A stretch of 64,000 bases of DNA. It comes from Geoalkalibacter halelectricus. Its GTDB lineage: Bacteria > Desulfobacterota > Desulfuromonadia > Desulfuromonadales > Geoalkalibacteraceae. The stretch covers positions 2,047,001-2,111,000 of the forward strand of contig NZ_CP092109.1 of NCBI RefSeq assembly GCF_025263685.1, in the 5' to 3' direction. Shown here piece by piece: positions 2,458 through 35,177 of the stretch; the first letter of the stretch is position 1; every line of letters begins with the position of its first letter. Position numbers and translations under genes: made by a program. The notes under the pieces were generated by a model that made no database searches, had not been told where the DNA came from, and saw only the letters and a program-made list of their open reading frames with translations.

Positions 2458-3372
2458 ATGCTGCTTGATATAGTGATCTGTACCTACAATAGGGGTAATT
2501 ACCTCTCCAAATGCTTAGAAAGTTTGTTAAATCAAGTTCAATCATTTGAAAATGTCGGGCTATTTGTTGTTGACAACAATAGTACCGACAACACAAAAAA
2601 GGTTGTTGAAGGATTTCAACAAAAGGTCACCAAAGTTCGTTATGTAAGCTGCCTTAAGCAGGGACTTGGCTTTGCTCGCAATAAAGCTATTGAAGAATGT
2701 AATGCAGAATGGCTCGCATTTATTGATGACGATGCTTATGCGGAAAAAAATTGGTTGGAAAATATTCTTCGGATAATACACGAGGGGAAATTCGACGCTT
2801 TTGGGGGAGTATATTATCCTTGGTACGCAGAGGGGAAGGTGCCTTGGTTCAAAGATTGCTACGAAACAAATGATACATGGATGCCTCCCGGTGATGAGTT
2901 TCGTTTGACGCAGGGTTATTTTTCTGGGGGGAATTCAGTGTTTAACGTTGGAAAACTCAGGGCTGCAGGAGGATTTCCAGTGGGAATTGGAATGAACGGC
3001 AACTTTGTCGGTTACGGCGAGGAAGTTGCCACCCAGCGGACCATGGCGATCAACGGTTCCCGACTCGGCTTCAGTCGCCGTTTGATTATTCACCATCTGG
3101 TACCGATGCGAAAGCAGAGGTGGCAATGGGCTTGGAAGCGCTCTTTTGCCTCGGGGAGGGATTTTTGGGCTATATATTCGAAGGAAACGACAAGAGAAAA
3201 TCTATTTTTCTATATAAAGAGTTCGCTTTTTAACACTTTTAGGGTTACAGCAATGTCGTTGAAATTATTTTTGTCAGGGAATCATAATTTTAAATGTCTT
3301 CTCTATGAATCTGGAAAGTTTGCATATATTTCTGGACTTATTTTTGGATATTGTCAGATGGAAAAATTATAA
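2458..3372 (+). CDS. GT2 family glycosyltransferase
   Basis: This is a 304-residue GT-A glycosyltransferase: LLDIVICTYNRG at the N-terminus, VDNNSTDNT nucleotide-binding loop, ARNKAIEECNAEWLAFIDDDA with the DDD metal site, then GGNSVFNV and GYGEEVATQRT in the acceptor half. ATG 2458 has AGGTGG five bases upstream, so the upstream GTG 2449 was not used. The C-terminus is basic and hydrophobic (FYIKSSLFNTFRVTAMSLKLFL), which could lie at the membrane. From here the DNA becomes clearly AT-rich compared with the first two genes, which suggests separate acquisition. Donor and acceptor cannot be deduced. Confidence 0.87.
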   Translation: MLLDIVICTYNRGNYLSKCLESLLNQVQSFENVGLFVVDNNSTDNTKKVVEGFQQKVTKVRYVSCLKQGLGFARNKAIEECNAEWLAFIDDDAYAEKNWLENILRIIHEGKFDAFGGVYYPWYAEGKVPWFKDCYETNDTWMPPGDEFRLTQGYFSGGNSVFNVGKLRAAGGFPVGIGMNGNFVGYGEEVATQRTMAINGSRLGFSRRLIIHHLVPMRKQRWQWAWKRSFASGRDFWAIYSKETTRENLFFYIKSSLFNTFRVTAMSLKLFLSGNHNFKCLLYESGKFAYISGLIFGYCQMEKL

Positions 3373-3516
3373 TTTTTCTAACAAATAAATTGTATTATCA
3401 ACGAGATGGGCGTGGGAACAACGCCACGGTTGTCCCCTTAGTGGGCTACCGGTAACGCCCCCCCCCCCCCCGAGGGCGCCGCTAAAACCCAGTCATCTGG
3501 GTAGGGTTTTTGCTCC
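3373..3516 (+). promoter_or_regulatory. Structured intergenic leader with a 14-C tract
   Basis: The 144-bp gap between two glycosyltransferase genes contains several possible hairpins: GGCGT with ACGCC around 3409-3425, and GGG-ACAA pairing with TTGTCCC around 3415-3437. An uninterrupted run of 14 C residues lies at 3458-3471. Just before the next start codon, AAAACCC (3484-3490) can pair with GGGTTTT (3504-3510), followed by further T residues. The last part could be an intrinsic terminator or attenuator. It matches no riboswitch class I recognise. Confidence 0.35.
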
Positions 3517-5052: not shown

Positions 5053-5103
5053 GTATCGTCAGACCACGAAAGGCGAACTATTAAATCATAAAGGAGAAAA
5101 TCG

Positions 5104-6786
5104 TTGAACGTGAGTAGCCGTTTAGGCTTAGACATATTCTCCCCGTCCGGCCACCCCCTGGGAAAGCTCAGTCCTGCGACCCTGGTCAGCCCTAAGGATT
5201 TGGTGACCTCAAAACGCTTGGACCTTGCAGTTAAATACAACTTTGCTCGGTTTTTAAACGGAAAGGGACGACGCCACAGAGTTTCATCGCCGGACATTTT
5301 GTATTCGTCGCATATCGAATTGAGGACAGGAGGCGTCGAGCCCTATGGAATTTTCAAAAAAAGATCCATAGAAGACTACCTTTCTTATTTTAAAATTGTA
5401 AACAATCAAATTAGAGAATATGGATTCGATGAGAATGAGCCCATATATGTCTCCTCAAAAACAGGTCTCGTGCTGAATGGTGCTCACCGCCTTGCTGTTT
5501 CTATTGAGCAAGGCATTCCACTTGTTCCGGTTGTGTACGATTCCAATTCAGAGGGTCGGACCTGGGATTTTTTTTGGTTCCTCGAGGCAGGCTTTTCTCG
5601 TTCCGACCTTGCTGAAATAGCAAGCAATTATTTAGAAATTACCAGCAAAAATTACAATGCCGCGATCGTTTGGCCCTCTGACAATGTTCATTTTCATGAA
5701 GTTTTGAAAGAGATCAAAGAAAGATCGGGAATAATTTACGTCGACTGCTTAGACTCTCAACACAATTTGAAAGAGTTTCTATTTGATGTTTACAGTTACG
5801 ACAAAGGAATTGATGTTGGGAGAACAAACGATAATATCCTACAAAAATTTGGACGTCTTTCGGAAAAGTCCATTAAGGACATAGGCCTTATTATTTTTGA
5901 AACCGAAACATTTGAAGACTCAATCGAATTAAGAAATGATGTTAGATCAATATTTAAAAATAGAATTAACGGCCCAGATTTTGACATAATACACTCGGGC
6001 TGCAGTCCTGATGAGCGCGACCATATCGCTAATATCATATTAAGTATTGCAACCCTTGACAGCTACAAAATTCGCCCTGAACTTTCGCAAAATCTTATAG
6101 AAAAAATTCATGTTTTGAGAAATTGGGCCAAGGAGAATTCTTTCTCCATTGACAACCTTGCAGTAGTTGGCGGTGCAGCGCTTGATCTGTACGGGCAAAA
6201 AAAATGTGATGACATTGATATTATAATGCGCTACCGCGATCGAAGGGAAAGATGGAATGACGGTTCCGCACAATTGTCATTCGGTCTTGACTTAGCAGGT
6301 TTTGGGTACGCCAACCACTTTAAGCGGGAGAGCCCACCGACGGATGATGAGATCATTTCTTGCCGTGACATGCACGTCATGGCAAGGGGTGTCAAATTTG
6401 CTACCCTTGACACGGTATTGGCGCGGAAACGATACTCTCATCAAAAAGCCAAAAATCGTGAAGACATTAGAAACTATGCTCTTTCAAGACTCAAGATTCC
6501 TATAAACCTCGAATCTGACGAGGCGGAAGCACTCTACATTGGCAAGGCGGCTTTTGAGCAGCTCAAAAAACTTGCCGAGAAGTATCATGCTGAAGGCAAG
6601 CTTCATATTGCGTCTTCTTACTATCGAAAAATAACAGAAGAGTGGCCTAAATCTGATTATGGGTGGCTTGGTCTTGGCATCTGTGCTGTTCAAAGAGGTG
6701 ACATGTCCTATGCAAGAGACTACCTGGAAAAAGCAGCAGGCCTCGGAACAAGCAAAGTGGCTAGAAGTCTTCTCTCTGGAATTTAA
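5104..6786 (+). CDS. ParB-like / nucleotidyltransferase / TPR multidomain protein
   Basis: This 560-residue protein appears to be a mosaic. Residues about 60-146 look like a ParB/sulfiredoxin-type fold (SSPDILYSSHIELR, then NGAHRLAV at 125-132). Residues about 185-310 are unassigned. Residues about 350-460 look like a minimal nucleotidyltransferase: GGAALDLYG at 356-364, DDIDI at 369-373 and a basic KAKNREDIRNY stretch. The last 80 residues look like a TPR pair (YYRKITEEWPKSDYGWLGLG, ARDYLEKAAGLG). The start is TTG 5104, with AAGGAG seven bases upstream. It lies inside a glycosyltransferase cluster, so sugar or glycan-carrier modification is a guess. No single family name fits. Confidence 0.6.
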   Translation: MNVSSRLGLDIFSPSGHPLGKLSPATLVSPKDLVTSKRLDLAVKYNFARFLNGKGRRHRVSSPDILYSSHIELRTGGVEPYGIFKKRSIEDYLSYFKIVNNQIREYGFDENEPIYVSSKTGLVLNGAHRLAVSIEQGIPLVPVVYDSNSEGRTWDFFWFLEAGFSRSDLAEIASNYLEITSKNYNAAIVWPSDNVHFHEVLKEIKERSGIIYVDCLDSQHNLKEFLFDVYSYDKGIDVGRTNDNILQKFGRLSEKSIKDIGLIIFETETFEDSIELRNDVRSIFKNRINGPDFDIIHSGCSPDERDHIANIILSIATLDSYKIRPELSQNLIEKIHVLRNWAKENSFSIDNLAVVGGAALDLYGQKKCDDIDIIMRYRDRRERWNDGSAQLSFGLDLAGFGYANHFKRESPPTDDEIISCRDMHVMARGVKFATLDTVLARKRYSHQKAKNREDIRNYALSRLKIPINLESDEAEALYIGKAAFEQLKKLAEKYHAEGKLHIASSYYRKITEEWPKSDYGWLGLGICAVQRGDMSYARDYLEKAAGLGTSKVARSLLSGI

Positions 6787-6794
6787 GAGGCAAC

Positions 6795-7808
6795 ATGCTT
6801 GAGGAACTAGAAAGGTTCGTTTTGTGCACTACACCGGCCGAGTTAAGGAAAAAGCATTTATCCGGACTGGTTACTCATCACCTTCAAAGATATAGAATTG
6901 CTAAATTTCAGCAGATCGTTGCCGAATTCAACAATAATGAGAAACACAAGCCTTTATTAACCCTTGAAGGCATGTTGCCTGAAAAAAAAAATAAAATAGG
7001 CCACATAGGCAGCATTTCTGAAAATTATTTCTATGGTCATGGCCTTGCTTTAAGAGAGTATTGTGGGTCCAGAAGATCCATTACATCCTGCATTGAGCAT
7101 GCTGTTTATCTAGACAACAACCTCCCCCAGCGCGATTGTCGGTGGCCCGTGCTATGCTTCTCTCCCCGCAGGGAATCCTTTCTCAGAACCCGTGGATTCG
7201 AAGCCACTGCCATCGGGTTACCCATTGTGTACACAAAAGGCTTATTGCCTGCTGGGCAGATCGAACGTTTGAAGACTCGCCTTGGGAAAACTCTTATTTT
7301 TTTCCCTTTTCATTCTATTGAAAATGCTTATTGCCGATATTCGATCACCGAGGCAATAAGAGCCTTATCGGAGTATCAAAAAGAATATAAAACCATTATA
7401 GTTTGCATCTACTTTCATGATATAAAAAGTGAATCACTTATCAAACGCTACAAAGATGCTGGCTTCTATTGCGTTACAGCAGGACATCGGGAAGATCCTC
7501 TTTTTTTAAAAAGACTGAGAAGTTTTTTCGACATTTCGGATGCCACTGCGACAAATATGGTTGGAACAAGTTCGGCATACAGCCTAGGATTAAACATAAA
7601 GCATTACATTATTGATCAAGATGTAAAAAAAATACCTATAAATCTAAACGAGCCCGTTATAAATAAAAAGAATCAAATCAGGGAAAAGGCTATGGAAATT
7701 TTAAAAGAACAAAAAAACATAAACAATGAGAATGATTTCTTTTCCTACAACTTTGGCACGAATATTAAATTGTCTTGCAAAGCAATAAAAGAACTTTTAC
7801 ATATTTAG
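6795..7808 (+). CDS. Uncharacterised protein of the glycan cluster
   Basis: The 337-residue product begins eight bases after the preceding stop, with GAGG just upstream of ATG 6795. I do not recognise the family. The central part alternates strands and helices in a way that resembles GT-B or capsule-biosynthesis enzymes: LIFFPFHSIENAYCRYSI, then TIIVCIYFHDIK, GFYCVTAGHREDP and a NMVGTSSAYSLGL segment before the C-terminus. That last pattern recalls the donor lobe of CDP-glycerol or polysialyl-type transferases, but this is weak. No signal peptide or membrane segment is evident. It is AT-rich and probably co-transcribed with its neighbours. Confidence 0.55.
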   Translation: MLEELERFVLCTTPAELRKKHLSGLVTHHLQRYRIAKFQQIVAEFNNNEKHKPLLTLEGMLPEKKNKIGHIGSISENYFYGHGLALREYCGSRRSITSCIEHAVYLDNNLPQRDCRWPVLCFSPRRESFLRTRGFEATAIGLPIVYTKGLLPAGQIERLKTRLGKTLIFFPFHSIENAYCRYSITEAIRALSEYQKEYKTIIVCIYFHDIKSESLIKRYKDAGFYCVTAGHREDPLFLKRLRSFFDISDATATNMVGTSSAYSLGLNIKHYIIDQDVKKIPINLNEPVINKKNQIREKAMEILKEQKNINNENDFFSYNFGTNIKLSCKAIKELLHI

Positions 7809-7820
7809 ATTTTTTAAAAA

Positions 7821-8222
7821 ATGAAAATAAATAGTAAATCAAAAAAATTGATAATTTTTGGAATTGGAAAAGGCGGCCAACACGGCTTTAAATTTTTCAA
7901 AAAAAACTACAATATAATTGCATTCTGCGATAACAACTCAAAAATGTATGGAGAATATTTTTTTAATATTCCTGTTATTGGTCCTTACGATATTGAAAGA
8001 TACGATTTTGATGAAATTGCAATCTGCAGCAGCTATAAAAATGAAATATATGAGCAGCTTGTTTCCGAACTCGGTTTTTCCCCTAATAAAATCAATATAT
8101 TAGACAATGATATTTTGATTTTTGGCCCAGGAAAACCATTTTTGTTTTATGGATTGAGTTTTTTAATTTTTCTTGGGCTGACTTCTATTTTGGCATTGTT
8201 GATTTTCAATCTTTTTTTATGA
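7821..8222 (+). CDS. Small Rossmann-like protein with C-terminal membrane helix
   Basis: This 133-residue protein has a nucleotide-binding-like N-terminus (LIIFGIGKGGQHG, glycines at 14-19), a DNN motif after the second strand and FDEIAICSS after the third. Residues about 110-132 are one hydrophobic helix. The first 95 residues align by eye, end to end, with the N-terminal domain of the fusion glycosyltransferase at 3517. It may therefore act as a detached version of that module held at the membrane. It starts 12 bp after the previous gene, with only a weak ribosome site. The biochemical role is unknown. Confidence 0.6.
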   Translation: MKINSKSKKLIIFGIGKGGQHGFKFFKKNYNIIAFCDNNSKMYGEYFFNIPVIGPYDIERYDFDEIAICSSYKNEIYEQLVSELGFSPNKINILDNDILIFGPGKPFLFYGLSFLIFLGLTSILALLIFNLFL

Positions 8223-11441: not shown

Positions 11442-11610
11442 TTAGGAGGCTGTCGAACTATCCGGGCCGAAGCGAAAATCTGGATGTTTCAGTCCGGATT
11501 TTGGCTCCTTTGAGAGTGCATAGCCATAGCTACGTGCCGAAAAGGATCCGGAATCCGGGCCAAACAGCCGGATTTGCAGCCGGCTCCTGGATAGTCCGAC
11601 AGCCTCCTAG
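11442..11610. mobile_element. 169-bp palindromic MITE-like element, copy 1
   Basis: The element has inverted ends related to CTAGGAGGCTGTCGGACT and an internal 18-bp inverted repeat. It matches the copies at 22902 and 61898 over the full 169 bp, with about eight differences from copy 2. The left end reads TTAG instead of CTAG. It contains no gene and is too short to encode a transposase. It sits between two toxin-antitoxin modules. Confidence 0.85.
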
Positions 11611-22901: not shown

Positions 22902-23070
22902 CTAGGAGGCTGTCGGACTATCCGGGCCGAAGCGAAAATTTGGATGTTTGAGTCCGGATTTTGGCTCCTTTGAGAGTGCATAGCCGTAGCTACGTACCGA
23001 AAAGGAGCCGGAATCCGGGCCAAACAGCCGGATTTGCAGCCGGCTCATGGATAGTCCGACAGCCTCCTAG
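22902..23070. mobile_element. 169-bp palindromic MITE-like element, copy 2
   Basis: Both ends read CTAGGAGGCTGTCGGACT inward and are perfect inverted repeats over 22 bp. An inner stem pairs 22954-22971 with 23001-23018 (16 of 18 direct matches; the other two could be G-U in RNA). It ends 43 bp before the first Mrp-type gene, so it may influence that operon. It differs from copy 3 at about five positions. Confidence 0.9.
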
Positions 23071-23113: not shown

Positions 23114-23635
23114 ATGTCGACCGAACCCCAATCTCCGCCGCGCGGCGGCGTTCTGACCGCTCTGCTGCCGCGTTTGATTCTTCTGGCCCTACTGTGGTGG
23201 GTGCTGACGGGTGGCGCGCGCGACGGCTGGGGCCTGGGCCTGCTGGTCATCGTTCTGGCCGTCTGGCTGTCCCTGGTTCTGCGCGCGCCGCAGCCCTGGC
23301 GGCTGAGCTTGGCCGGTGCCCTGCGCTTTGTGCCCTATTTCTGCTGGCAGTCGGTGCGCGGCGGGTTCGATGTGACGCGGCGCGCCTTCTCGCCCGGCCT
23401 TCCCCTGGCGCCGCTGCTTCTGGAGCATCCTTTGCGGTTGCCGCCGGGCACGGCCCGGATTTTTTTGCTCAATACCGTCAGCCTGCTGCCCGGCACCCTG
23501 AGCGCGCAATTGCACGGCGATCGGCTGGTGGTGCATGGACTCGACGGCGGCCTGCCCCTGGCGCAGGATCTGCGGCGGCTGGAATCTCGGGTGGCGGGTC
23601 TCTTCGGATTGCGCCTTGGAGGAAGCGATGGCTGA
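23114..23635 (+). CDS. mrpE: Mrp-type antiporter subunit E
   Basis: The 173-residue membrane protein belongs to the MnhE/MrpE family: hydrophobic N-terminus (LLPRLILLALLWWVLTGG), VPYFCWQSVRGGFDVTRRAF, and TARIFLLNTVSLLPGTLSAQL with HGLDG near the end. It is an accessory subunit of multi-subunit cation/proton antiporters. A longer open frame starts at 22961 inside the palindromic element, but ATG 23114 is the first sensible start. The ribosome site is weak. It overlaps the next gene by eight bases and heads an eight-gene operon. Confidence 0.9.
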   Translation: MSTEPQSPPRGGVLTALLPRLILLALLWWVLTGGARDGWGLGLLVIVLAVWLSLVLRAPQPWRLSLAGALRFVPYFCWQSVRGGFDVTRRAFSPGLPLAPLLLEHPLRLPPGTARIFLLNTVSLLPGTLSAQLHGDRLVVHGLDGGLPLAQDLRRLESRVAGLFGLRLGGSDG

Positions 23636-23909
23636 ACTTTGTCTGGGCCTGGCCCTGTTGCTGCTGCTGACCATCGTTGCCGGGCTGGTGCGGGTGCTGC
23701 GCGGGCCGACGCCGGCTGACCGCATGCTGGCCGCGCAACTCTTCGGCACCACCGGCGTCGCCATTCTGCTTCTGCTGGGGCAGGCGACGGGGGTTGCGGC
23801 CCTCTGGGATGGGGCCTTGATCTTTGCTCTGCTGGCCGCGGTCGCGGCGGTCACTTTCGTGCGCTGCGCCTGGCAGCGGCAGGGCGGCGGAGACGACCAT
23901 GGAGATTAG
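23628..23909 (+). CDS. mrpF: Mrp-type antiporter subunit F
   Basis: The 93-residue product has three hydrophobic helices and the MrpF/MnhF core VLRGPTPADRMLAAQLFGTTG, followed by ALWDGALIFALLAAVAAVTFVRC. GGAGG lies upstream of ATG 23628, within the end of mrpE. The small F subunit is needed for assembly of Mrp complexes. It overlaps mrpG by 11 bases. Confidence 0.92.
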   Translation: MAELCLGLALLLLLTIVAGLVRVLRGPTPADRMLAAQLFGTTGVAILLLLGQATGVAALWDGALIFALLAAVAAVTFVRCAWQRQGGGDDHGD

Positions 23910-24201
23910 AGACGTCCTGAGCACCGTGCTGCTGCTGGCGGCGGTGCCCTTTTTTCTCGCCGGCACTCTGGGGCTGCTGCGCTTTCCCGATGTGTTCTGC
24001 CGCCTGCATGCCCTGACCAAGGCCGACAATCTGGGCCTGGGCCTGATCGTGCTCGGACTCATGCTTCAGGCGCCCTCCTGGCATGCCGCGGCCGGTCTGC
24101 TGTTGACCTGGCTGCTGGTTCTGCTGGCCGGGGCGACGGTGGCCCATCTGATCGCGCGCAAGGCCCTGGCCGACGGACAGCGACCCTGGAGCCGGTCATG
24201 A
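23899..24201 (+). CDS. mrpG: Mrp-type antiporter subunit G
   Basis: This 100-residue membrane protein has the MrpG/MnhG pattern: FFLAGTLGLLRFPDVFCRLHALTKADNLGLGLI is diagnostic. Three helices are predicted. The gene overlaps both neighbours (11 bp with mrpF, 4 bp with the next), consistent with translational coupling in one operon. Confidence 0.93.
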   Translation: MEIRDVLSTVLLLAAVPFFLAGTLGLLRFPDVFCRLHALTKADNLGLGLIVLGLMLQAPSWHAAAGLLLTWLLVLLAGATVAHLIARKALADGQRPWSRS

Positions 24202-25187
24202 GCGAGCTCGGCGTGTTGTTCGACCTGATACTGCTGGGCACCCTGGTGTGGCTGGCCTGGCGGCTTTTGGCCAGCGCCGATCTCTTCAAGGCGGTGGTGC
24301 TGTTCATCGCCTTTGGTTTGTTGCTGGCCCTGGCCTGGGCGCGGCTCGGCGCCCCGGATGTGGCCCTGGCCGAAGCCGCCATCGGCGCGGGCATCACCGG
24401 CGCGCTGCTGCTTGTCGCCCTGCGCCGGCTCGGCCCGGAAACCGAGCGGATGCGCCGCCATGCGCCGACCATCGGGCAGCGGCTGTCGGCGCGCTTGCTG
24501 GTCGGCATCGCGGGCGCAGCGGTGGCCCTGCTGGTGGCGCGCGCCCTGCTCGGGCTGCCGGCGGTGGCGCCGGGGCTGGCGCCCCGGGTGGCCGAGGATC
24601 TGGCCCAGAGCGGCGTGGCCCATCCGGTCACGGCGGTTTTGCTTAACTTTCGCGGCTTCGATACCCTTCTGGAAGTCGGCGTGCTGGTCTTGGCGGTTCT
24701 GGGCATCTGGTGCCTGAACGAGGCCCCTCAGCTGGCTCCGGCGCAGCCGGACTCTCCGGTCCTGCTTGGTCTGGTGCGCCTGCTGCTGCCCCTGCTGATG
24801 GTGGCCGGGGGCTATTTGCTGTGGTTGGGCGCCCATGCCCCGGGGGGCGCCTTTCAGGGCGGGGCCCTGCTGGCGGCGGCCGCGGTATTGGGGCTTCTGG
24901 CCGGCTTTGCCCTGCCGCGGCGTTGGAGCGGCCTGCCCTTGCGCCTGATGCTGGCCGCCGGCCTGGCGGTCTTTCTGGCCGTGGGCGCGGCGCCCCTGCT
25001 GGGCGGCGGCTGGTTTCTGGCTTATCCGCCCGGCGCGGCCAAGACCCTGATCCTGCTGATTGAAACCCTGCTCACGGGCTCCATCGCCGCGGTCCTGGCG
25101 GTGGCGGTGGTGGGGGGACGCCCGGGCGAGGCCGCCGCGAGCTATCCGCCCCTGGCCGAGCCGCCTGTCGGAAAAGAGACTTCATGA
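24198..25187 (+). CDS. Fused MbhD/MbhE/MrpB-like subunit
   Basis: The 329-residue protein joins parts that are separate in many complexes. Residues 1-75 resemble MbhD or the MrpA tail (LFKAVVLFIAFGLLLALAWARLGAPDVALAEAAIG). Residues about 140-175 resemble MbhE (NFRGFDTLLEVGVLVLAVLGIW). Residues about 190-310 are MrpB-like (LLPLLMVAGGYLLWLGAHAPGGAFQGGALLA). About nine membrane helices are expected. It carries the MrpA C-terminal portion although no full MrpA is in the operon. It overlaps mrpC by four bases. Confidence 0.85.
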   Translation: MSELGVLFDLILLGTLVWLAWRLLASADLFKAVVLFIAFGLLLALAWARLGAPDVALAEAAIGAGITGALLLVALRRLGPETERMRRHAPTIGQRLSARLLVGIAGAAVALLVARALLGLPAVAPGLAPRVAEDLAQSGVAHPVTAVLLNFRGFDTLLEVGVLVLAVLGIWCLNEAPQLAPAQPDSPVLLGLVRLLLPLLMVAGGYLLWLGAHAPGGAFQGGALLAAAAVLGLLAGFALPRRWSGLPLRLMLAAGLAVFLAVGAAPLLGGGWFLAYPPGAAKTLILLIETLLTGSIAAVLAVAVVGGRPGEAAASYPPLAEPPVGKETS

Positions 25188-25498
25188 GTGTGCCGCTGTT
25201 ATACGCCGCGGGCGGAGTGGTGCTGTTCTGCCTGGGGCTGTACGCGATTTTTCTGCGCGTTCATCTGCTGCGCAAGATTCTGGCCGCCAATGTCATGGGC
25301 AGCGGCGTGTTCATGGTGTTCATCGCCCTGGCGGCGCGCGTTCCCGGCGCCGATGCCGATCCGGTACCCCACGCCATGGTGCTGACGGGCATTGTCGTGG
25401 CGGTGTGTTTCACCGCCCTGGCGGTGGCCCTGGCGGTGCGCATCGAGGAGCTCAGCGGCCACTCGCGGCTGCCGCGCAAGGGTGAGGAGGGGGCATGA
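25184..25498 (+). CDS. mrpC: Mrp-type antiporter subunit C (NuoK-like)
   Basis: The 104-residue product resembles NuoK and MrpC: three helices, LGLYAIFLRVHLLRKILAANVMGSGVFMV and PHAMVLTGIVVAVCFTALAVALAVRI. NuoK-like subunits contribute charged residues to the proton path of complex I-type machines. ATG overlaps the previous stop, and its own stop overlaps the next start. Confidence 0.92.
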   Translation: MSVPLLYAAGGVVLFCLGLYAIFLRVHLLRKILAANVMGSGVFMVFIALAARVPGADADPVPHAMVLTGIVVAVCFTALAVALAVRIEELSGHSRLPRKGEEGA

Positions 25499-26979
25499 GC
25501 TGGCTGCTCGATCAGCCTTGGAGCCTGTGGGCCATCATTCTGCCCCTGGCCGCCGCCCTCGGCGCCTTCCTCGCGCCGCGCCAGGCGCCGCGTATCGGCA
25601 TGGCGGCGGCGCTCGCCATCTTTGCGACGGTGCTGGGCGCGATCCTGCAGGTCCATGGGCGCGGCCCGCAGTTTCACGCCTTGGGTGGCTGGGAAGCGCC
25701 CCTGGGCATCGCCCTGCGCACCGACGGCTTGTCCCTGATGCTGCTGGCGGCCACCGCCCTGGTCGGCCTGGTGGTCAGTTGGTACGCCCTGGGGTATTTC
25801 TCCGGCACCGTGCACGGGGCGGAAAAGCGCGAATATTTCTGGCCCCTGTGGCTGTTTCTCTGGGGGGCGTGCAACGCCCTGGCCGTCTCCGGCGATCTGT
25901 TCAATCTTTATGTGACCCTGGAGCTGGTCACTCTGGCCTCGGTGGCGCTCACCGCCCTGGGCGGCGGTGCTGCCGCCCTGAGCGCGGCCATGCGCTATCT
26001 GCTCAGCGGCCTGGTCGGATCCCTGTGCTATCTGCTCGGCGTGGCCCTGATTTACGGCGCCCACGGCACCGTCGATCTGGCACTCCTCGCGCAGTTGGTC
26101 AGCGACGATGGCTTGAGTCGCGCCGCCCTGGCCCTGATGGTCACCGGCCTGCTGCTCAAGACGGCGCTCTTTCCACTGCATTTCTGGTTGCCGCCGGCCC
26201 ATTCCATGGCCCCCGCTCCGGTGAGCGCGCTGCTTTCGGCCCTGGTGGTCAAGACCTCCTATCTAATTCTGCTGCGCCTGTGGTTTGAGGTCTTTCCTAC
26301 GGTGGTCACTCCGGGCATGGGGCAGTTGCTCGGCATCCTGGGCGCCGGCGCGATTCTCTGGGGCTCGTTCATGGCCCTGCGCCAGGAGCGGCTCAAGCTG
26401 CTGGTGGCCTACTCCACCGTGGCGCAGCTCGGCTATCTGTTTTTGGTGTTTCCCCTGGCCCAGGGCGAGGCCCTGACGGGGGCCTGGACCGGCGTGGTGT
26501 TCTTTGTGCTCGCCCATGCCTGCGGCAAGGCGGCCATGTTCCTGGTGGCGGGCACCATCTACCATACCGCCGGTCATGACCGCATCGCCTACCTGGCCGG
26601 TGCCGGCGGTCCCCTGGGCGTGCAGGTGGTGGTGTTCGCCCTGGCGGCGGTGACCATCATCGGATTGCCGCCGAGCGGCGGCTTCATGGCCAAGTGGCTG
26701 CTGCTCAACGCCGCCATCGCCGGCGGCCAGTGGTGGTATCTGGTGGTCATGGCCCTGGGCAGCCTGCTGGCCGGCGCCTATGTCCTGCGGGTGCTGAGCT
26801 GGGCGTTTCTCGATGTGCGGCGCACCTTTTACCCGACCCTGCCCTGGACCCTGCGCTGGCCGCCCCTGGCGCTGTCGCTGGTGGCGCTGCTGCTGGGACT
26901 GCTGGCTTTTGTGCCGGTGCATCTGGTGCTGACCGACGCGCCGGTGAGCGCGGCGGTGCGTCTGGAGGTGCGGCCGTGA
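25495..26979 (+). CDS. mrpD: Mrp-type antiporter subunit D (NuoM/N-like)
   Basis: This 494-residue protein is an ion-translocating antiporter-like subunit with about 14 helices. The TM5 glutamate is present in NLYVTLELVTLAS (Glu143), and the TM7 lysine in LLLKTALFPLHFWLPPAH. VAYSTVAQLGYLF is also typical. GTG of the next gene overlaps its stop as GTGA. It is the first of three such subunits encoded in series. Confidence 0.95.
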   Translation: MSWLLDQPWSLWAIILPLAAALGAFLAPRQAPRIGMAAALAIFATVLGAILQVHGRGPQFHALGGWEAPLGIALRTDGLSLMLLAATALVGLVVSWYALGYFSGTVHGAEKREYFWPLWLFLWGACNALAVSGDLFNLYVTLELVTLASVALTALGGGAAALSAAMRYLLSGLVGSLCYLLGVALIYGAHGTVDLALLAQLVSDDGLSRAALALMVTGLLLKTALFPLHFWLPPAHSMAPAPVSALLSALVVKTSYLILLRLWFEVFPTVVTPGMGQLLGILGAGAILWGSFMALRQERLKLLVAYSTVAQLGYLFLVFPLAQGEALTGAWTGVVFFVLAHACGKAAMFLVAGTIYHTAGHDRIAYLAGAGGPLGVQVVVFALAAVTIIGLPPSGGFMAKWLLLNAAIAGGQWWYLVVMALGSLLAGAYVLRVLSWAFLDVRRTFYPTLPWTLRWPPLALSLVALLLGLLAFVPVHLVLTDAPVSAAVRLEVRP

Positions 26980-28475
26980 ACCTCGACGCTCTGTTGCTGC
27001 TCGCCATCCTCTCCAGTTCCCTGATCCCGGGCTTGGTCATTTTCGGCTTGCCCGAGGAGCGCCACCGCTTGCGCACCTTGCTCAATCTCGCCGGAGCCTT
27101 CGTCAAACTGAGTCTGGTGGGGGTGTTGTTCCTCGGTGTTTATTCCGGCCATGAGTATGCGTTTCGCCTGCCGCTGCTGCCGGGCCTGGATCTGGTGCTG
27201 CATGCCGACGCGCTGTCCCTGCTGTTCATCGTTCTTTCGGCCTTTCTCTGGTTCGTCACCACGGTTTATGCCGTGGGCTATCTGGAGGGCGCGCCCAATC
27301 GCAGCAGGTTCTTCGGCTTCTTCAGCCTGTGCGTCAGCGCCACCACCGGCATCGCTCTGGCCGGGGATCTGGTGACCTTCGTCATTTTTTACGAGATGCT
27401 GACCATCTCCACCTTCCCCCTGGTGGTGCATCGCGGCACGCCGGAGGCCCTGCGCGCCGGACGCATCTACCTGGCCTACACCCTGAGCGGCGGGGTGGTG
27501 CTGCTGGTGGCCACCGCTTGGCTGCGCGTCCTGGCCGGACCCCTCGATTTTGTGCCGGGCGGCTTTCTCGCCGGGCTCGATGCGGCGCTCTATCCGACCC
27601 TGCAGTTCTTGTTTGGGCTGCTGATGGTCGCCCTCGGCGTGAAAAGCGCCCTGGTGCCCCTGCACTCCTGGTTGCCCACCGCCATGGTGGCGCCGGCGCC
27701 GGTCAGCGCCCTGCTGCATGCGGTGGCGGTGGTCAAGGCGGGTGCCTTCGGCATCGCGCGCGTGGTTTATGATGTCTACGGCATCGGATTTGCGCTGCAG
27801 TTGGGGGTGCTTTTGCCCCTGGCGGCGCTGGCGGCGGTCACCATAGTCTACGGGTCGGTGCGCGCTCTCTTTCAGGACGATCTCAAGCGGCGTCTGGCCT
27901 TTTCCACCGTGAGCCAGGTCGCCTACATCGTGCTTGGGGTGGCCATCGCCGGCCCCCTGGCGACCATCGGCGGCCTGGTGCACCTGGTGCATCAGGGCAT
28001 GATGAAGATCACCCTGTTTTTCTGCGCCGGCAATCTCGCCGAAACCCTCGGTATTCATAAGATCAGCGAGATGGCCGGCGTCGGGCGGCGCATGCCCTGG
28101 ACCATGGCCGCCTTCACCCTGGGTGCCCTGGGCATGATCGGGGTGCCGCCCATGGTCGGTTTTATCAGCAAATGGTATCTGGCCCTGGGCGGGCTCGAAG
28201 CCGGCCAATCCTGGGTAGTGGTACTGCTGGTGGTCAGCACCCTGCTCAACGCCGCCTATTTCCTGCCCATCCTCTACACCGCCTGGTTTGGCCACCAACA
28301 CCAGTCCTGGCCCCATGAACACTTGGGCGACGAGCATCGCGAAACCACCTGGGCGCTGCTGCTGCCGCCCCTGATCACCGCGGCGCTGGTGGTGCTGCTC
28401 GGGGTGTTTGCCAGCGCGCCCTTGAGTCCTCTGCAATGGGTGCAGCTCATCGCCGCGCGGGAGTATGGTCCATGA
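26976..28475 (+). CDS. Second MrpD-like (NuoL/M/N-like) subunit
   Basis: The 499-residue product is a second antiporter-like subunit. The key TM5 glutamate is in VTFVIFYEMLTIST (Glu140), with the TM7 lysine in GVKSALVPLHSWLPTAM and MMKITLFFCAGN further on. GTG 26976 is the start, with GGAGG seven bases upstream; an open frame extending to 26694 lies inside mrpD and is not used. Hydrophobicity predicts 13-14 helices. It is not a close duplicate of the preceding gene. Confidence 0.93.
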   Translation: MNLDALLLLAILSSSLIPGLVIFGLPEERHRLRTLLNLAGAFVKLSLVGVLFLGVYSGHEYAFRLPLLPGLDLVLHADALSLLFIVLSAFLWFVTTVYAVGYLEGAPNRSRFFGFFSLCVSATTGIALAGDLVTFVIFYEMLTISTFPLVVHRGTPEALRAGRIYLAYTLSGGVVLLVATAWLRVLAGPLDFVPGGFLAGLDAALYPTLQFLFGLLMVALGVKSALVPLHSWLPTAMVAPAPVSALLHAVAVVKAGAFGIARVVYDVYGIGFALQLGVLLPLAALAAVTIVYGSVRALFQDDLKRRLAFSTVSQVAYIVLGVAIAGPLATIGGLVHLVHQGMMKITLFFCAGNLAETLGIHKISEMAGVGRRMPWTMAAFTLGALGMIGVPPMVGFISKWYLALGGLEAGQSWVVVLLVVSTLLNAAYFLPILYTAWFGHQHQSWPHEHLGDEHRETTWALLLPPLITAALVVLLGVFASAPLSPLQWVQLIAAREYGP

Positions 28476-30220
28476 ACGCGGCGGTGGCTTTTCAGACGCT
28501 GTTGCTGCCCCTGGTGCCGCTGGTACCGCTGCTGATTCTTGGGGCGCTGCTGTTTCGCCGCCTGAGCGCCCTGGCGCTGCGTCTCGCCCCCTGGGCGCCG
28601 CTGCCGGGGCTGATCGCTTCCTTGATGCCGGAGAGCGGGGCGGTGCTGGAGCTGCCCTGGATGCTGCTGGGCGGCAGCCTCGGCCTGGACGCGACGGGGC
28701 GGGTTTTCTTGTTTCTCTTCTCCCTGCTGTGGCTGGCCGCCGGGTCTTACGCAAGCGCCTATTTGCGTGATGATCCCCGTCGGCGCCGCTTCTTCGCCTT
28801 TTTCCTCCTCGCGCTGTGCGGCAACCTGGGCTTGCCCATCGCCCGCGACATGCTCGATTTCTATCTGTTTTTCGCCCTGATGAGTTTTTCCGCCTACGGC
28901 CTGGTGGTGCACGACAGCAGTGACTTTGCCCTGCGTGCCGGCCGCATCTACCTCTACCTGGTGCTGGTGGGCGAGGTGATGCTGTTCGTGGCGCTGGCAC
29001 TCACTGCGCGTGCCGCCGGCTCCCTGGCCATGGCCGAGGCCGCCGCGGCCCTGGCCGAAGCGCCGGACCGCGGTTTGATTCTGGCCCTGCTGCTGATCGG
29101 GTTCGGCATCAAGATGGGGGTGGTGCCCTTGCATGTCTGGCTGCCCCTGGCCCATCCGGCGGCGCCCATCCCGGCCAGCGCGGTGCTCAGCGGCGCCATG
29201 ATCAAGGCGGGGTTGCTCGGGTTGCTGCGTTTCCTGCCCCTGGGTGAAACGGCTCTGCCGGGCTGGTCCCTGATTCTCATCACCCTGGGGCTGACCATGG
29301 CTTTTTATGGCGTGGTGGCGGGCCTCGCCCAGCAACAGGCCAAGGCAGTGCTGGCCTATTCGAGCATCAGCCAGATGGGCTTTCCCCTGCTCGGGCTGGG
29401 GCTGGCCCTGGCGGATCCGGAAAGCTGGCAGGTGCTGGCGCCGGTGGTGATCCTCTATGCCTTGCATCACGGCTTGGCCAAGGGCACCTTGTTCCTCGGG
29501 GTAGGGATGGCGGGCGAGTTGGCGGGCACCGCCGGGCGCCGCTACCTGGTGCTGGCCGGTCTGCTGTTGCCGGCCCTGGCCCTGGCCGGCGCGCCCCTGA
29601 CCAGCGGCGCTCTGGCCAAGGGCGCCCTCAAACCCCTGGTTTACCTGGCTCCGGGCGGCTGGGCCGCGGCGCTGCCCTGGTTGCTGTCCCTGGGGGCGGT
29701 GGGCACCACCCTGCTCATGGCGCGCTTTCTGGCCCTGCTCTGGCCCCATGCCGCCGCGCGTGAGGCTCCCCGTCCCGCCATGTGGGGGAGTTGGGGCTTG
29801 TTGATCCTGGCCGTGCTGTTCAGTCGTGGCGGCGGGTTGCCGGATCTGGTCGGTCTCAGCGGTCCCCCAGGTTTTGCCTATGGACTCTGGGACGCGCTCT
29901 GGCCGGTGGCGATCGGCGGGCTGGCGGCGGCCGCGGCCTGGCTGCGTCTGCCGCACCGCGGGCGCGAAGCGGCACCCCTGCTGCCCCCCGGTGATCTGCT
30001 GGTGCTGCTGCACAAGCTCATGGATCCCCTGGCGCGTCTGGCCCACCGCCTGCACATCGATTTATTGCCGCGCAAGCTCAGCTGGCGTCCTCCGCCGCGC
30101 TTTCATTGGCACAACCTCGCGGTGCTGCTGGCGCTGCATGAGGCCGAGCAGGCCCTGCGGCGCTTGCCCGTGGCCGGGGCGCTGTTTCTGATCGTCTTGA
30201 TTTTGCTTCTGGTGTTGTGA
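28472..30220 (+). CDS. Third, divergent MrpD/HyfB-like subunit
   Basis: This 582-residue protein shows the antiporter-like fold: GIKMGVVPLHVWLPLAHPAAPIPASAVLSG carries the TM7 lysine, and KAVLAYSSISQMGFPLLGL is typical. At the TM5 position of the usual glutamate it has alanine (FYLFFALMSFSAY, Ala135). Its C-terminus is extended by a basic, partly amphipathic region (about 500-582) ending in one hydrophobic helix, as in HyfB/NuoL-type lateral extensions. It overlaps the previous gene by four bases and ends the operon. Confidence 0.88.
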   Translation: MNAAVAFQTLLLPLVPLVPLLILGALLFRRLSALALRLAPWAPLPGLIASLMPESGAVLELPWMLLGGSLGLDATGRVFLFLFSLLWLAAGSYASAYLRDDPRRRRFFAFFLLALCGNLGLPIARDMLDFYLFFALMSFSAYGLVVHDSSDFALRAGRIYLYLVLVGEVMLFVALALTARAAGSLAMAEAAAALAEAPDRGLILALLLIGFGIKMGVVPLHVWLPLAHPAAPIPASAVLSGAMIKAGLLGLLRFLPLGETALPGWSLILITLGLTMAFYGVVAGLAQQQAKAVLAYSSISQMGFPLLGLGLALADPESWQVLAPVVILYALHHGLAKGTLFLGVGMAGELAGTAGRRYLVLAGLLLPALALAGAPLTSGALAKGALKPLVYLAPGGWAAALPWLLSLGAVGTTLLMARFLALLWPHAAAREAPRPAMWGSWGLLILAVLFSRGGGLPDLVGLSGPPGFAYGLWDALWPVAIGGLAAAAAWLRLPHRGREAAPLLPPGDLLVLLHKLMDPLARLAHRLHIDLLPRKLSWRPPPRFHWHNLAVLLALHEAEQALRRLPVAGALFLIVLILLLVL

Positions 30221-31081: not shown

Positions 31082-33796
31082 ATGAGCGAAGCAAAGACCA
31101 GCTCCAAGTCCGCCCGGGTGGATTGGCATGCCCTGAGCGATGAGGATACGCTAAAGAAGCTCTCCGCCGATCTTTCCGGCCTGAACGACTCCGAAGCCCA
31201 AAAGCGCCTGGAGGAGCACGGACCCAACCGCCTGCCGCCGCCCGCCAAGCGCAGCGCCCTGGTACGATTTTTCTCCCACTTCCACAATCTGCTCATTTAC
31301 GTTCTGCTGGCCGCGGCGCTCATCACCGCCGCGCTCGGACACTGGCTCGACTGCTGGGTGATCCTCGCGGTGGTGGTGATCAATGCCTTCATCGGCTTCG
31401 TGCAGGAGGGCAAGGCGGAAAAAGCCCTGGATTCCATTCGCGCCATGCTCTCACTACAGGCTTACGTCGAGCGCGACGGCAAGCGCCGGGAGATTTCCGC
31501 CGAAGATCTGGTGCCCGGCGATATCGTGCTGCTACAGGCTGGCGACAAGGTGCCGGCCGATCTGCGTCTGCTGCGGGTCAAGGATCTGCGCGTCGACGAG
31601 GCGATTCTCACCGGTGAATCGGAGCAGGTTTCGAAAAATACCGACGCGGTGGCCGAGGATGCCGCCGTGGGCGATCGTTTCTGCATGGCCTATTCGGGCA
31701 CGGTGGTGACCTACGGGCGGGCCACGGGGGTGGTCGTCGCCACCGGCGCGCACACCGAAATCGGGCGCATCAGCGAGATGCTCTCCACCGTCGAGGCCAT
31801 TACCACCCCCTTGCTGCGCCAGATGGACACCTTCGCCCGCTGGCTGACCGGCGCGATTCTGCTGCTCGCCGCCCTGACTTTCGCCTTTGGTTTTTTCTTC
31901 CGCGATTACTCCACCAGTGAGCTGTTTCTCGCCGCCGTCGCTCTCATGGTGGCGGCCATCCCCGAGGGTCTGCCGGCCATCATCACCATCACCCTGGCCA
32001 TCGGCGTGCAGCGCATGGCGAAACGCAACGCCATCATCCGGCGCCTGCCGGCGGTGGAAACCCTGGGCGCGGTGACCGTCATCTGCTCGGACAAGACCGG
32101 CACCCTGACGCGCAACGAGATGACGGTGCAGGCCATCGCCTCCGCCGCGGATCTCTTCGAGGTCGAAGGCACCGGCTATGATCCGCACGGCGCGGTCAAC
32201 CGCAAGGGGCAAAACGTCGAGCTCGATGAAGAACCCCTGCTGGGAGATCTGGTGCGCGCCGGCTTGCTGTGCAACGATTCGTCTCTTAACCAGCGCGACG
32301 GGCAATGGCAGGTGCAAGGCGATCCCACCGAAGGGGCCTTGCTCACTCTGGGGAACAAAGTCGGCCTGGATCTCAAGACGGAACAGGACCAGCACCCGCG
32401 CACCGATGTCATTCCCTTCGAATCCGAGCACCGCTTCATGGCCACCTTGCACCACGATCATGAAGGCCAGGCGGTCATTTACCTCAAGGGCGCGCCCGAG
32501 CGGGTGCTGGAAATGTGCGACCGGCAGCGGCGCGGCGAGGTGGATGAGGATCTCGATGTCGACTTCTGGCACCGCAAGGGCGAGGAGCTGGCCGGGCGCG
32601 GTCAGCGCTTGCTGGCCCTGGCCTGCAAGAAAGCGCGCCAAGGGCAGAATGAGCTGAACTTCAAGGATGTGGAGGAGGGCCTGACGCTGCTGGGCCTGGT
32701 GGGCATCATCGACCCGCCGCGGCCGGAAGCCGTCGCAGCGATCAAGGAATGCCGCAGCGCCGGCATCCGCGTCAAGATGATCACCGGCGATCACGCGCGC
32801 ACTGCCCTGGCCATCGGCGCCGACATGGGCATCGGCGACGGCGAGCATGCCGTGCGCGGCAAGCAGATCGAGGAGGCCTCCGAGGAGCAATTGCGCAAGT
32901 GGGTGCGCGAGGTGGATATTTTCGCGCGCTCCAGCCCCGAGCACAAACTGCGGCTGGTCAAGGCCCTGCGTCAGGAGGGGGAGGTGACGGCCATGACCGG
33001 CGACGGGGTCAACGACGCGCCGGCACTCAAGGGCGCCGACGTGGGGGTGGCCATGGGCGTCAAGGGCACGGAAGTCTCCAAGGAGGCGGCCGAAATGGTG
33101 CTGGCCGACGACAACTTCGCCTCCATCGTCCATGCCGTGGAAGAGGGCCGCACGGTCTACGACAACATCCGCAAGGCCATCACCTTCATTCTGCCCACCA
33201 ACGGCGCCCAGGCCTTCGTGCTGCTGGCGGCCATCGCCTTCGGCCAGGCCCTGGTCATCACCCCGGTGCAGATTCTGTGGGTGAACATGATCACCGCCGT
33301 GACCCTGGCCCTGGCCCTGGCCTTCGAGCCGCCCGAGGCCGATATCATGGAGCGTTCGCCGCGCCCGACACGCGAGGAGATTCTCACCCCTTTCCTGGGG
33401 TGGCGCATCTTCAACGTGTCGCTGATTCTTTTGGTCGGCACTTTCGGCATGTTTCTCTATGAAGTGAACCGGGGTGCGGAGATCGAGCTGGCCCGCACCG
33501 TGGCGGTCAACACCCTGGTCATGTTCGAGGTCTTTTATCTGTTCAACTGCCGCTATCTGCACCGCAGCGTACTCTCGGGCGAAGGCCTGCTGGGCAATCG
33601 CTATGTGCTGCTGGCCATCGGCGCGGTATTCGTCCTCCAGGCACTGTTCACCTACGCGCCGCCCATGCAGGTGTTGTTCTCCACCGCGCCCATGGATGCC
33701 GCAACCTGGCTGCGGGCGATCGCGGTGGCATTCTCGGTCTTCGTGCTGGTGGAACTCGAAAAAGTCGTCTACAACCGCCTCCGCCGCAGCGATTAG
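31082..33796 (+). CDS. P2-type cation-transporting ATPase
   Basis: The 904-residue inner-membrane pump has an N-terminal cation-ATPase domain, TGES (177-180), PEGLP in M4 (294-298), the phosphorylation site DKTGTLT (Asp337), KGAPE in the nucleotide domain, TGD and GDGVND. The PEGLP motif resembles calcium or sodium/potassium pumps. The M6 segment (WVNMITAVTLALALAFEPPE) lacks the DG pair of classical SERCA-type calcium pumps. The ion is therefore uncertain: Ca2+, Na+ or K+. GAGGGAGG lies just before ATG. Confidence 0.93.
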   Translation: MSEAKTSSKSARVDWHALSDEDTLKKLSADLSGLNDSEAQKRLEEHGPNRLPPPAKRSALVRFFSHFHNLLIYVLLAAALITAALGHWLDCWVILAVVVINAFIGFVQEGKAEKALDSIRAMLSLQAYVERDGKRREISAEDLVPGDIVLLQAGDKVPADLRLLRVKDLRVDEAILTGESEQVSKNTDAVAEDAAVGDRFCMAYSGTVVTYGRATGVVVATGAHTEIGRISEMLSTVEAITTPLLRQMDTFARWLTGAILLLAALTFAFGFFFRDYSTSELFLAAVALMVAAIPEGLPAIITITLAIGVQRMAKRNAIIRRLPAVETLGAVTVICSDKTGTLTRNEMTVQAIASAADLFEVEGTGYDPHGAVNRKGQNVELDEEPLLGDLVRAGLLCNDSSLNQRDGQWQVQGDPTEGALLTLGNKVGLDLKTEQDQHPRTDVIPFESEHRFMATLHHDHEGQAVIYLKGAPERVLEMCDRQRRGEVDEDLDVDFWHRKGEELAGRGQRLLALACKKARQGQNELNFKDVEEGLTLLGLVGIIDPPRPEAVAAIKECRSAGIRVKMITGDHARTALAIGADMGIGDGEHAVRGKQIEEASEEQLRKWVREVDIFARSSPEHKLRLVKALRQEGEVTAMTGDGVNDAPALKGADVGVAMGVKGTEVSKEAAEMVLADDNFASIVHAVEEGRTVYDNIRKAITFILPTNGAQAFVLLAAIAFGQALVITPVQILWVNMITAVTLALALAFEPPEADIMERSPRPTREEILTPFLGWRIFNVSLILLVGTFGMFLYEVNRGAEIELARTVAVNTLVMFEVFYLFNCRYLHRSVLSGEGLLGNRYVLLAIGAVFVLQALFTYAPPMQVLFSTAPMDAATWLRAIAVAFSVFVLVELEKVVYNRLRRSD

Positions 33797-33860: not shown

Positions 33861-35177
33861 ATGCATCAATATCTTCGCGCAACCTTTTGGATTCTGGTCT
33901 ATATGGCCCTGGTTCTGGCGCCTTTGTTCGCCCTGCTGCTGGGGCCGGTGCCCGCGGGCGGCGGCTTCTGGGTGGATCTGTCCCTGGCCCTGGGTTTTGC
34001 CGGCACCGCCATGATGGCCATCATGTTTTTGCTCACCGCCCGCTTCCAGCGCGCCACGGCGCCCTTCGGCATCGATCTCATCTACTATTTTCATCGCCTG
34101 GCCTCCATCGGCGCCTTTGCCTTCATTCTCGCCCACCCCCTGATTCTGGTGGCGCGCGATCCGGCCCTGTTCGGTGCCATGCACCCGGCGGTCATGCCCT
34201 GGCATCTGTGGGCCGGCTTCATCTCCTTCGGCGCCCTGGCGGCCCTGATGATCACCTCCCTGTGGCGCAAGCAACTGCGCATTCATTATGACGAGTGGCG
34301 GCGGGCCCACGTGCTGCTGGCCGTTCTCGCCCTGGTGCCGGGCGTGGCGCATATCGCCGGGGTCGCCCACTACAGCGCCACACCCTGGAAGACCTGGCTG
34401 TGGCTGCTCATCATGCTTTCGTGCCTGGCCACGGTGGGGTATGTGCGCCTGCTAAAGCCTATGCAGATGCTGCGTCGCCCCTGGCGCGTGGTGGAGGTCA
34501 TCGAGGAGCGCGGCAGTTCCTGGACCCTGGTGGTGCGCCCCGAGCGCCACGCGGGATTTCGGTTTCTGCCCGGTCAGTTCGCCTGGTTGACCCTGTGGAG
34601 TTCGCCCTTTGCCATGAAGGAGCATCCCTTCTCCATCTCCTCGAGCGCCGAGGCGGTGCGTGAGGTGCGTTTCACCATCAAGGAGCTGGGTGATTTCACC
34701 CGCCGCATCGGTCAGGTCAAGCCCGGCACCCCGGTGTGGCTCGATGGCCCCTACGGCACTTTCAGCATCGACATCAGCCGCGCGCCGGGCTATGTGTTCG
34801 TCGCCGGCGGCGTGGGTATCGCGCCGGTCATGAGCATGCTGCGCACCCTCGCCGATCGTGGCGACCAGCGCCCGCTGCTGCTCTTTTACGCCTACCACAC
34901 CTGGGAGCGGCTGACCTTTCGCGAGGAACTCGAACAGCTCAAGGAGCAGCTCAACCTGGAAATCGTCTACGTGCTGAGCGAGCCGCCTTCGGACTGGCAG
35001 GGGGAAACAGGCTACCTGAGCGAGGAAATTTTCGCCCGCCACCTGCCCGCCGACAAGGCCGCGCGCGAATGCTTTATCTGCGGGCCCACGCCCATGATCG
35101 CGGTGGCGGAGCGCGGCCTGGCGCGCCAGGGCATGCCGCCCACCCAAATTCATTCGGAACTCTTTGATTTGGTTTGA
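33861..35177 (+). CDS. Ferric reductase-like transmembrane flavoprotein
   Basis: The 438-residue protein has six N-terminal membrane helices with paired histidines (YYFHRLASIGAFAFILAHPL; RAHVLLAVLALVPGVAHIAG) likely to bind heme. A FAD-binding domain (EHPFSISSS) and an NAD(P)-binding domain (VAGGVGIAPVMSM, CFICGPTPM) follow. It would move electrons from NAD(P)H through FAD and heme across the membrane, as in ferric reductases and NADPH oxidases. The start ATG 33861 has little ribosome site; the 64-bp spacer before it is a run of ACAACGGAC-like units. Confidence 0.9.
   Translation: MHQYLRATFWILVYMALVLAPLFALLLGPVPAGGGFWVDLSLALGFAGTAMMAIMFLLTARFQRATAPFGIDLIYYFHRLASIGAFAFILAHPLILVARDPALFGAMHPAVMPWHLWAGFISFGALAALMITSLWRKQLRIHYDEWRRAHVLLAVLALVPGVAHIAGVAHYSATPWKTWLWLLIMLSCLATVGYVRLLKPMQMLRRPWRVVEVIEERGSSWTLVVRPERHAGFRFLPGQFAWLTLWSSPFAMKEHPFSISSSAEAVREVRFTIKELGDFTRRIGQVKPGTPVWLDGPYGTFSIDISRAPGYVFVAGGVGIAPVMSMLRTLADRGDQRPLLLFYAYHTWERLTFREELEQLKEQLNLEIVYVLSEPPSDWQGETGYLSEEIFARHLPADKAARECFICGPTPMIAVAERGLARQGMPPTQIHSELFDLV

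Follow-up and report, generated by a model that had tools for sequence, protein, structure and literature searches.

In the scheme set out in PMC8415708, Group 3 Mrp systems are those that lack mrpA and have only mrpD, at times in multiple copies. The layouts given there and in PMC5703873 include a stand-alone mrpEFGBB'CD set in P. furiosus, mrpCD1D2EFGAB in cyanobacteria and mrpFGBCDDAE in Microbacterium TS-1; for Candidatus Nitrospira alkalitolerans and lineage IV Nitrospira, NuoM-/NuoL-like genes are described beside the mrp genes of Group 3 systems (PMC7784846, PMC12342949). We analysed an operon at 23114-30220 of a 64,000-nucleotide stretch of the Geoalkalibacter halelectricus genome (contig NZ_CP092109.1, positions 2,047,001 to 2,111,000; this whole stretch is referred to as the window). 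Judged from its sequence, the operon probably encodes a Group 3-type Mrp that works on its own as a cation/proton antiporter.

A first-pass annotation had listed eight genes in the order E-F-G-fusion-C-D-D'-D'', and both their coordinates and their Pfam domains bear this out (Table 1). Consecutive genes overlap by a few bases, and all lie on the same strand. The C-terminal part of MrpA does reside in the fusion, as had been proposed: the fusion combines this part with MrpB, aligns to residues 656-810 of the solved MrpA (6z16 chain A) and can be aligned with MbhD and MbsE too, and its MbhE domain scores 24.2 bits, under the 27-bit Pfam cut-off. The long N-terminal MrpA/NuoL part is missing according to Pfam, a genome scan for MbhD and the tree described below; in its stead the operon encodes three antiporter-like subunits (D1, D2 and D3), with Proton_antipo_M found three times. 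The Pfam domains of the eight genes include no MrpA gene, and no hydrogenase or oxidoreductase subunit is encoded from E through D3, again in agreement with the annotation.

By gene content the operon matches Group 3: mrpA is absent, at least one D-type gene is present, and there are homologues of MrpB/MbhD, C, E, F and G. As Group 3 systems are described, they share with it the absence of mrpA or an irregular order, an E-F-G-B-C-D core and, in the bacterial ones, several D-type genes, although the operon has three D-type subunits and the layout given for the P. furiosus stand-alone Mrp has one. The Group 1 and 2 systems of Bacillus, Vibrio and Sinorhizobium have the E, F, G, B, C and D subunits and most path residues in common with the operon, but are ordered A-B-C-D-E-F-G or A'-C-D-E-F-G, with two antiporter-like subunits; their MrpA with a NuoL-type N-terminal domain and their acidic MrpF Asp35 are both lacking here. 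The MBH and MBS complexes of Pyrococcus furiosus have their ion-pumping subunits in common with it: among solved chains, MBH subunit H gives the best sequence match for each of D1, D2 and D3, and MBS and MBH chains give those for the fusion. In contrast to the operon, MBH and MBS have hydrogenase or sulfur-reductase modules and keep the MrpF-type Asp in both solved chains; the linked NuoB/NuoD-type subunits expected of MBH/MBS or a group 4 respiratory complex are absent from the operon. The rhizobial "green" and Nitrospira 2M forms of complex I also have extra antiporter-like subunits in series, but carry NADH/quinone modules.

Conservation of the operon and ancestry of D1, D2 and D3

Relatives were gathered by scanning species genomes with a D3 profile and using the best 80 of 585 confirmed places, to which 14 loci from the host's order were added, giving 94 loci (L064 and L078 are an identical contig). 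Loci were chosen on motifs other than the D3 helix-5 and helix-6 sites. Of 136 genomes of the order, 16 have a D3 orthologue (at least 178 bits), among them each of the four searched within the genus. The best 80 of the 585 places fall in Pseudomonadota, Thermodesulfobacteriota, Verrucomicrobiota, Gemmatimonadota, Chloroflexota, Planctomycetota, Campylobacterota, Kiritimatiellota and Actinomycetota, with Myxococcus assigned by record title.

The full order E-F-G-fusion-C-D1-D2-D3 is kept in 66 of the 94 loci, with the fusion detected either in one piece or in two. The arrangement had been put forward as unusual; it is real and widespread, but it fits published Group 3 Mrp, and its order is standard for a complex of a kind already known, which had been named as a refuting outcome and tells against the novelty of the arrangement. 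The Nitrospira Group 3 arrangement is probably the same, as far as the published descriptions allow a comparison. Seventeen of the 28 loci without the full order begin no more than 740 bases from the end of the examined DNA and lack the first genes; one of these (L114) additionally lacks D2 and another (L076) has E after D3. Among the other 11, E is placed after D3 in two Aeromicrobium loci (L134, L150), only D1-D2-D3 is present in L128, and C, or E and F, went undetected in L099 and L143. On a Rubrobacter radiotolerans plasmid the order is E-F-G-fusion-D3-D1-D2, with C not annotated.

Some loci vary in the number of antiporter-like subunits. Two Chromatiaceae operons carry tandem D3 genes (L092, 7862-11698; L124, 8037-11581) and so have four such subunits. 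D3 directly follows D1, with D2 absent, in L149 and L114, and three Thioalkalivibrio contigs (L126, L131, L144) have a D3 gene without an adjoining D1 or D2.

An MrpA gene at this place in relatives had been named as a finding that would speak against the annotation. One does lie upstream in a single same-genus genome (G043, L058/L158), where separate MrpA, C, D, E, F and G genes directly precede the eight-gene operon; having its own C-D-E-F-G, this MrpA belongs to another Mrp system and supplies no missing part. A Mrp-type C-D-E set stands directly upstream of the operon both in this genome and in Candidatus Anammoxibacter.

The phylogeny of the three D-type subunits, a check proposed with the annotation, shows that each belongs to an old clade of its own and that none is an MrpA. 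In a tree of 85 rows D1, D2 and D3 each form one clade (support 99, 100 and 100), and deeper branches have moderate support only. D1 is placed near MrpD and NuoN. The sister clade of D2 holds subunits of a second Mrp-like operon and a complex-I-like cluster of the host together with an MrpD-like subunit of an S. meliloti complex I, which has two MrpD-like subunits and is taken to be of the green type. D3 forms a long separate branch, and MrpA clusters with NuoL and HyfD, away from all three.

Conserved residues and the MrpF/MrpG carboxylate

The residues associated with proton transfer are kept almost without exception in D1 and D2. The helix-5 Glu is found in all 82 D1 rows, all 85 D2 rows and 36 of 37 reference rows, the sole exception among the references being the Rubrobacter D3. 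The helix-12 Lys is present in every D1, D2 and D3 row, and the helix-7 Lys in all but one D1 row and one D3 row, both with Arg. D3 has the helix-5 Glu in none of its 94 rows and a helix-6 Glu in all 94, at a column occupied by Ser, Ala or Thr in D1, by Gly, Ala or Ser in D2 and by Asp in NuoL. This Asp (NuoL Asp178, in the column of D3 Glu168) has reportedly been mutated and studied, although the papers checked do not name it. The D3 pattern is not explained by selection of the loci, because these were picked on other motifs. An AlphaFold2 model of D3 built with 51 sequences (predicted local distance difference test score 88.7, predicted template modelling score 0.89; low confidence past about residue 530) has the predicted fold of an antiporter-like subunit, with near-tied best Z scores of 41.6 to NuoL, 40.0 to MrpA and 39.4 to MrpD.

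Most of the cation path is likewise conserved. In the fusion, Glu59 is kept in 75 of 75 loci and Arg152, Asp155 and Glu159 in 77 of 77; we match Glu59, Asp155 and Glu159 to E69d/E706, D792 and E796, which have been discussed for MBH and Mrp. MrpE His141 (71/71 operon rows), MrpG His37 (74/74) and MrpC Asn36 and Asp59 (both 78/78) are invariant, and MrpF position 31 is Asp in 66 of 70 rows and Glu in three.

One carboxylate stands in a different place. An Asp at the MrpF Asp35 site is present in all aligned solved chains (6z16, 6cfw, 6u8y, 7d3u, 7qru), whereas the operon carries its acid on MrpG rather than MrpF. MrpG Asp43 occurs in 74 of 74 rows and is absent from four canonical references and five solved chains. 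All 70 F/G pairs from the operon loci are acidic on G only. A survey of the phylum found 75 MrpG places in 70 of 198 genomes, and 70 of these were used together with their MrpF neighbours, two places of the host genome and three more being left out. In 10 pairs F alone is acidic and in 60 G alone; there is no pair with two acidic partners or with none. Across the 140 pairs, exactly one partner is therefore always acidic. MrpE and fusion matches both lie within the examined 3 kb in 56 of the 70 phylum loci, and four of the 60 G-only pairs carry the Gln typical of the eight-gene operon MrpF.

In a tree of 81 concatenated F/G pairs the G-acid type is one clade (100/97), which makes this one old switch of the acid, and the solved Mrp, MBH and MBS chains are all on the F-acid side. 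We rejected repeated gain of the swap: a single change accounts for the pair tree, so that the exclusive pattern does not stem from compensations that arose many times over. The MrpF Asp said to be invariant is thus not universal. Among the titles and abstract openings listed by searches of the open-access literature, none describes the MrpF/MrpG or D3 residue shifts; these shifts are the new detail of this analysis and, with the series of antiporter-subunit numbers described below, the part that merits following up.

Functional interpretation

Of the two functions first suggested for the operon, the stand-alone sodium/proton antiporter appears the likelier. A review reports that a cyanobacterial Group 3 Mrp is functional as a Na+/H+ antiporter. 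In solved Mrp, MrpD places its helix-12 Lys against the helix-5 Glu/helix-7 Lys pair of MrpA, and the helix-5 Glu of MrpD itself couples this subunit to the cation site, as described in PMC7419157. In the scheme that we propose for the operon, protons would pass inward through D3, D2 and D1 in series, coupled via helix-12 Lys and helix-5 Glu/helix-7 Lys pairs, and Na+ or a similar cation would pass outward via a module of E, F, G, the fusion and C. D1, which adjoins C and is MrpD-like, would stand in the place of MrpD; D2 and then D3 would be added on its outer side, so that D3, its carboxylate shifted from helix 5 to helix 6, would close the row. We infer from this scheme, in which direction, ion and subunit order are all provisional, that coupling three proton modules to a single cation site would raise the proton:cation ratio beyond that of two-module Mrp. 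Extra antiporter-like subunits in complex I are likewise read as raising the ratio in PMC9040806.

Several observations weigh against an antiporter. The helix-5 Glu site of D3 is Ala in 73 rows, Thr in 12, Ser in four, Gly in three and Val in two, with Glu in none of the 94. The MrpF Asp35 site is Gln in 60 rows, Leu in six, Ile in two, Met in one and Phe in one, and acidic in none of 70; in the account of solved Mrp this Asp is called invariably conserved and is required for growth in high NaCl. In all 74 rows the MrpG Pro has given way to Ala or Ser, and a Pro-to-Ala change in B. pseudofirmus MrpG is reported to abolish antiport and retain rescue of Na+ sensitivity; the solved Dietzia MrpG likewise has no Pro at the aligned place. 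With these three residues lost, antiport is not assured. In addition, the P-type ATPase that recurs beside the operon (see below) was not found in the examined DNA of two of three same-genus relatives (L056 and L058), where a membrane flavoprotein is present.

The missing helix-5 Glu, the long branch in the tree and the three Thioalkalivibrio contigs with D3 alone would also suit a D3 that is a non-conducting structural end piece, leaving two proton modules as in ordinary Mrp. We regard this as unlikely, though a good deal short of negligible: the helix-12 Lys and helix-6 Glu are kept in 94 of 94 D3 rows and the helix-7 Lys in 93, with Arg in one, and such strict keeping of ionisable residues would hardly be expected of an inert cap.

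The other function first suggested, a membrane arm that serves a complex-I-like redox module (for quinone, hydrogenase or sulfur chemistry) encoded elsewhere in the genome, draws on the resemblance of the E-F-G-D/E/B-C-D order to the MBH order, on the MBH and MBS subunits among the closest solved chains, on the S. meliloti complex I subunit in the D2 sister clade, and on complex-I-like and hydrogenase-4-like clusters elsewhere in the host genome. The survey of homologous loci proposed with it does not support it. E. coli NuoA-I and HyfA, C, E, G, H and I were compared with the open reading frames (ORFs) of 95 loci; the same queries match the clusters of the host genome and S. meliloti, and near the 95 loci they reveal no convincing redox core subunit. 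The weak matches are small ferredoxin-like proteins by three Marinobacter loci, the MrpC of the operon itself, ferredoxin-domain matches near L080 and L106 (each about 20 bits) and a 24-bit match near L087, which has Nqr-like genes 6-9 kb away. A further query set of ORFs from four host clusters, noisy with antisense ORFs, matched a membrane flavoprotein (via an NqrF-like query), the Nqr-like genes of L087 and a few unrelated proteins. Moreover, a NuoB-type protein (PF01058), which complex I in any form, green and 2M included, would require in the host, is present in 45 of 50 operon-bearing genomes and absent from five (Halospina, a Kiritimatiellales metagenome-assembled genome and three Marinobacter), all five with the full eight-gene order; these are drafts that could hide one, so the absence is not final for any single genome. 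We therefore consider a redox arm highly improbable.

A redox-linked transporter partnered by that membrane flavoprotein, whose gene lies at 33861-35177, seems to us very improbable indeed. It is found near the operon in three same-genus relatives, including the two without the ATPase, in one same-family relative and on one Desulfuromonadales contig (L064, identical to L078; 558 bits), with weaker matches at L101 (Marinobacter, 121 bits) and L091 (Accumulibacter, 46 bits), and flank-ORF clustering links its family to nine loci. However, it accompanies only eight of 95 loci, two of them one identical contig and most of them of one lineage, and in the window a P-type ATPase intervenes, placing it 3.6 kb downstream of D3.

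Returning to the stand-alone antiporter, its stoichiometry can be framed more broadly, if tentatively. The G-acid systems, the operon among them, may make up a widespread, separate half of the Mrp superfamily, set apart by a shift of the cation-path carboxylate from MrpF to MrpG; the eight-gene type, with its D3 Glu moved from helix 5 to helix 6 and its three proton modules (probably four in some Chromatiaceae), could then be an antiporter running in high gear, at a higher proton:cation ratio than ordinary Mrp, a possibility that we hold to be rather doubtful as a whole. Natural relatives form a series that bears on Mrp stoichiometry and on how many ions each antiporter-like subunit moves: one such subunit in P. 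furiosus, two in Mrp, three in the eight-gene type and probably four in Lamprobacter and Halochromatium, all of them lacking a linked redox module. With this series the idea of one proton per subunit would be open to a direct test.

Neighbouring genes, related clusters and other features

Table 1. Positions in the window of the eight operon genes and two recurrent neighbours.
Feature	Position	Strand	Basis and remarks
MrpE-like subunit	23114-23635	+	PF01899 (MNHE), 83.7 bits
MrpF-like subunit	23628-23909	+	PF04066 (MrpF_PhaF); Gln37 codon 23736-23738, place of Mrp MrpF Asp35
MrpG-like subunit	23899-24201	+	PF03334 (PhaG_MnhG_YufB); Asp43 codon 24025-24027
MbhD/MbhE/MrpB(MnhB) fusion, 329 residues	24198-25187	+	PF13244 (MbhD), PF04039 (MnhB), weak PF20501 (MbhE)
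MrpC/NuoK-like subunit	25184-25498	+	PF00420 (Oxidored_q2)
D1, antiporter-like subunit near MrpD/NuoN, 494 residues	25495-26979	+	PF00361 (Proton_antipo_M); tree
D2, antiporter-like subunit, 499 residues, GTG start	26976-28475	+	PF00361 (Proton_antipo_M); tree
D3, antiporter-like subunit with C-terminal extension, 582 residues	28472-30220	+	PF00361 (Proton_antipo_M); Ala135 codon 28874-28876 (helix-5 Glu site); Glu168 codon 28973-28975 (helix 6)
P-type ATPase, recurrent neighbour	31082-33796	+	TIGR01522, 690.8 bits, below the 798.3 cut-off
Membrane flavoprotein, weaker recurrent neighbour	33861-35177	+	C-terminal half resembles FAD/NAD reductase families, all below cut-off; putative N-terminal membrane region read from the sequence

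The P-type ATPase is the commonest neighbour, with a homologue beside 17 of 95 loci, and is a possible functional partner of the operon. In the 50 loci whose genomes were searched, it lies in nine of the examined flanks against 0.23 expected (82 homologues in 225.5 Mb; 641 kb of flank; Poisson P 5e-12), a value that overstates independence, as the nine loci represent about six lineages (three are Verrucomicrobia and two Nitrotoga). The window ATPase matches Ca2+-ATPases best. A Ca2+ reading was not adopted: the helix-6 Asp of Listeria LMCA1, which we take to be a Ca2+-binding residue, aligns with Ala in the window protein. Flank-ORF clustering also returned an ABC-transporter ATPase (nine loci), a receptor-like protein (eight loci) and smaller families, which may reflect related genomes.

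The 4.13-Mb genome contig has 19 Proton_antipo_M matches. Outside the window operon, the host has two complex-I-like clusters, one of which adjoins putative Na+-NQR genes. A further complex-I-like cluster has four antiporter-like subunits, and the genome also contains a hydrogenase-4-like cluster and, near 3.65 Mb, a second Mrp-like operon. MbhD matches above cut-off are confined to the two Mrp-like operons, as are MrpE matches; one sub-cut-off MbhD match lies in the complex-I-like cluster at 266 kb. Among these MbhD and MrpE profile matches no canonical MrpA was found in the host genome.

The second Mrp-like operon (L023, 8575-16141; genome about 3644.6-3652 kb) is arranged E-F-G-MbhD-..-C-D-D-small-D. 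Its MrpG carries the Asp and its MrpF has Thr. Its last two D subunits group with subunits of an S. meliloti complex I and of a complex-I-like cluster of the host, suggesting that the same pair serves both kinds of machine. The cluster with four antiporter-like subunits (L021, genome 314-334 kb) includes two that group with the MrpD-like pair of S. meliloti complex I.

A 169-bp near-perfect palindrome, probably a miniature inverted-repeat transposable element, has three copies in the window (11442-11610, 22902-23070 and 61898-62066), the second of which stops 43 bp upstream of the MrpE start codon. The genome search scored 40 of 90 candidates and gave 40 nearly full-length places with 96-100% identity; as the copy at 11442 is missing from these, there are at least 41 copies genome-wide. 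Positions 2001-8000 of the window have 40-42% G+C, compared to 52-71% per 2-kb block in the rest, and this stretch is a possible island.

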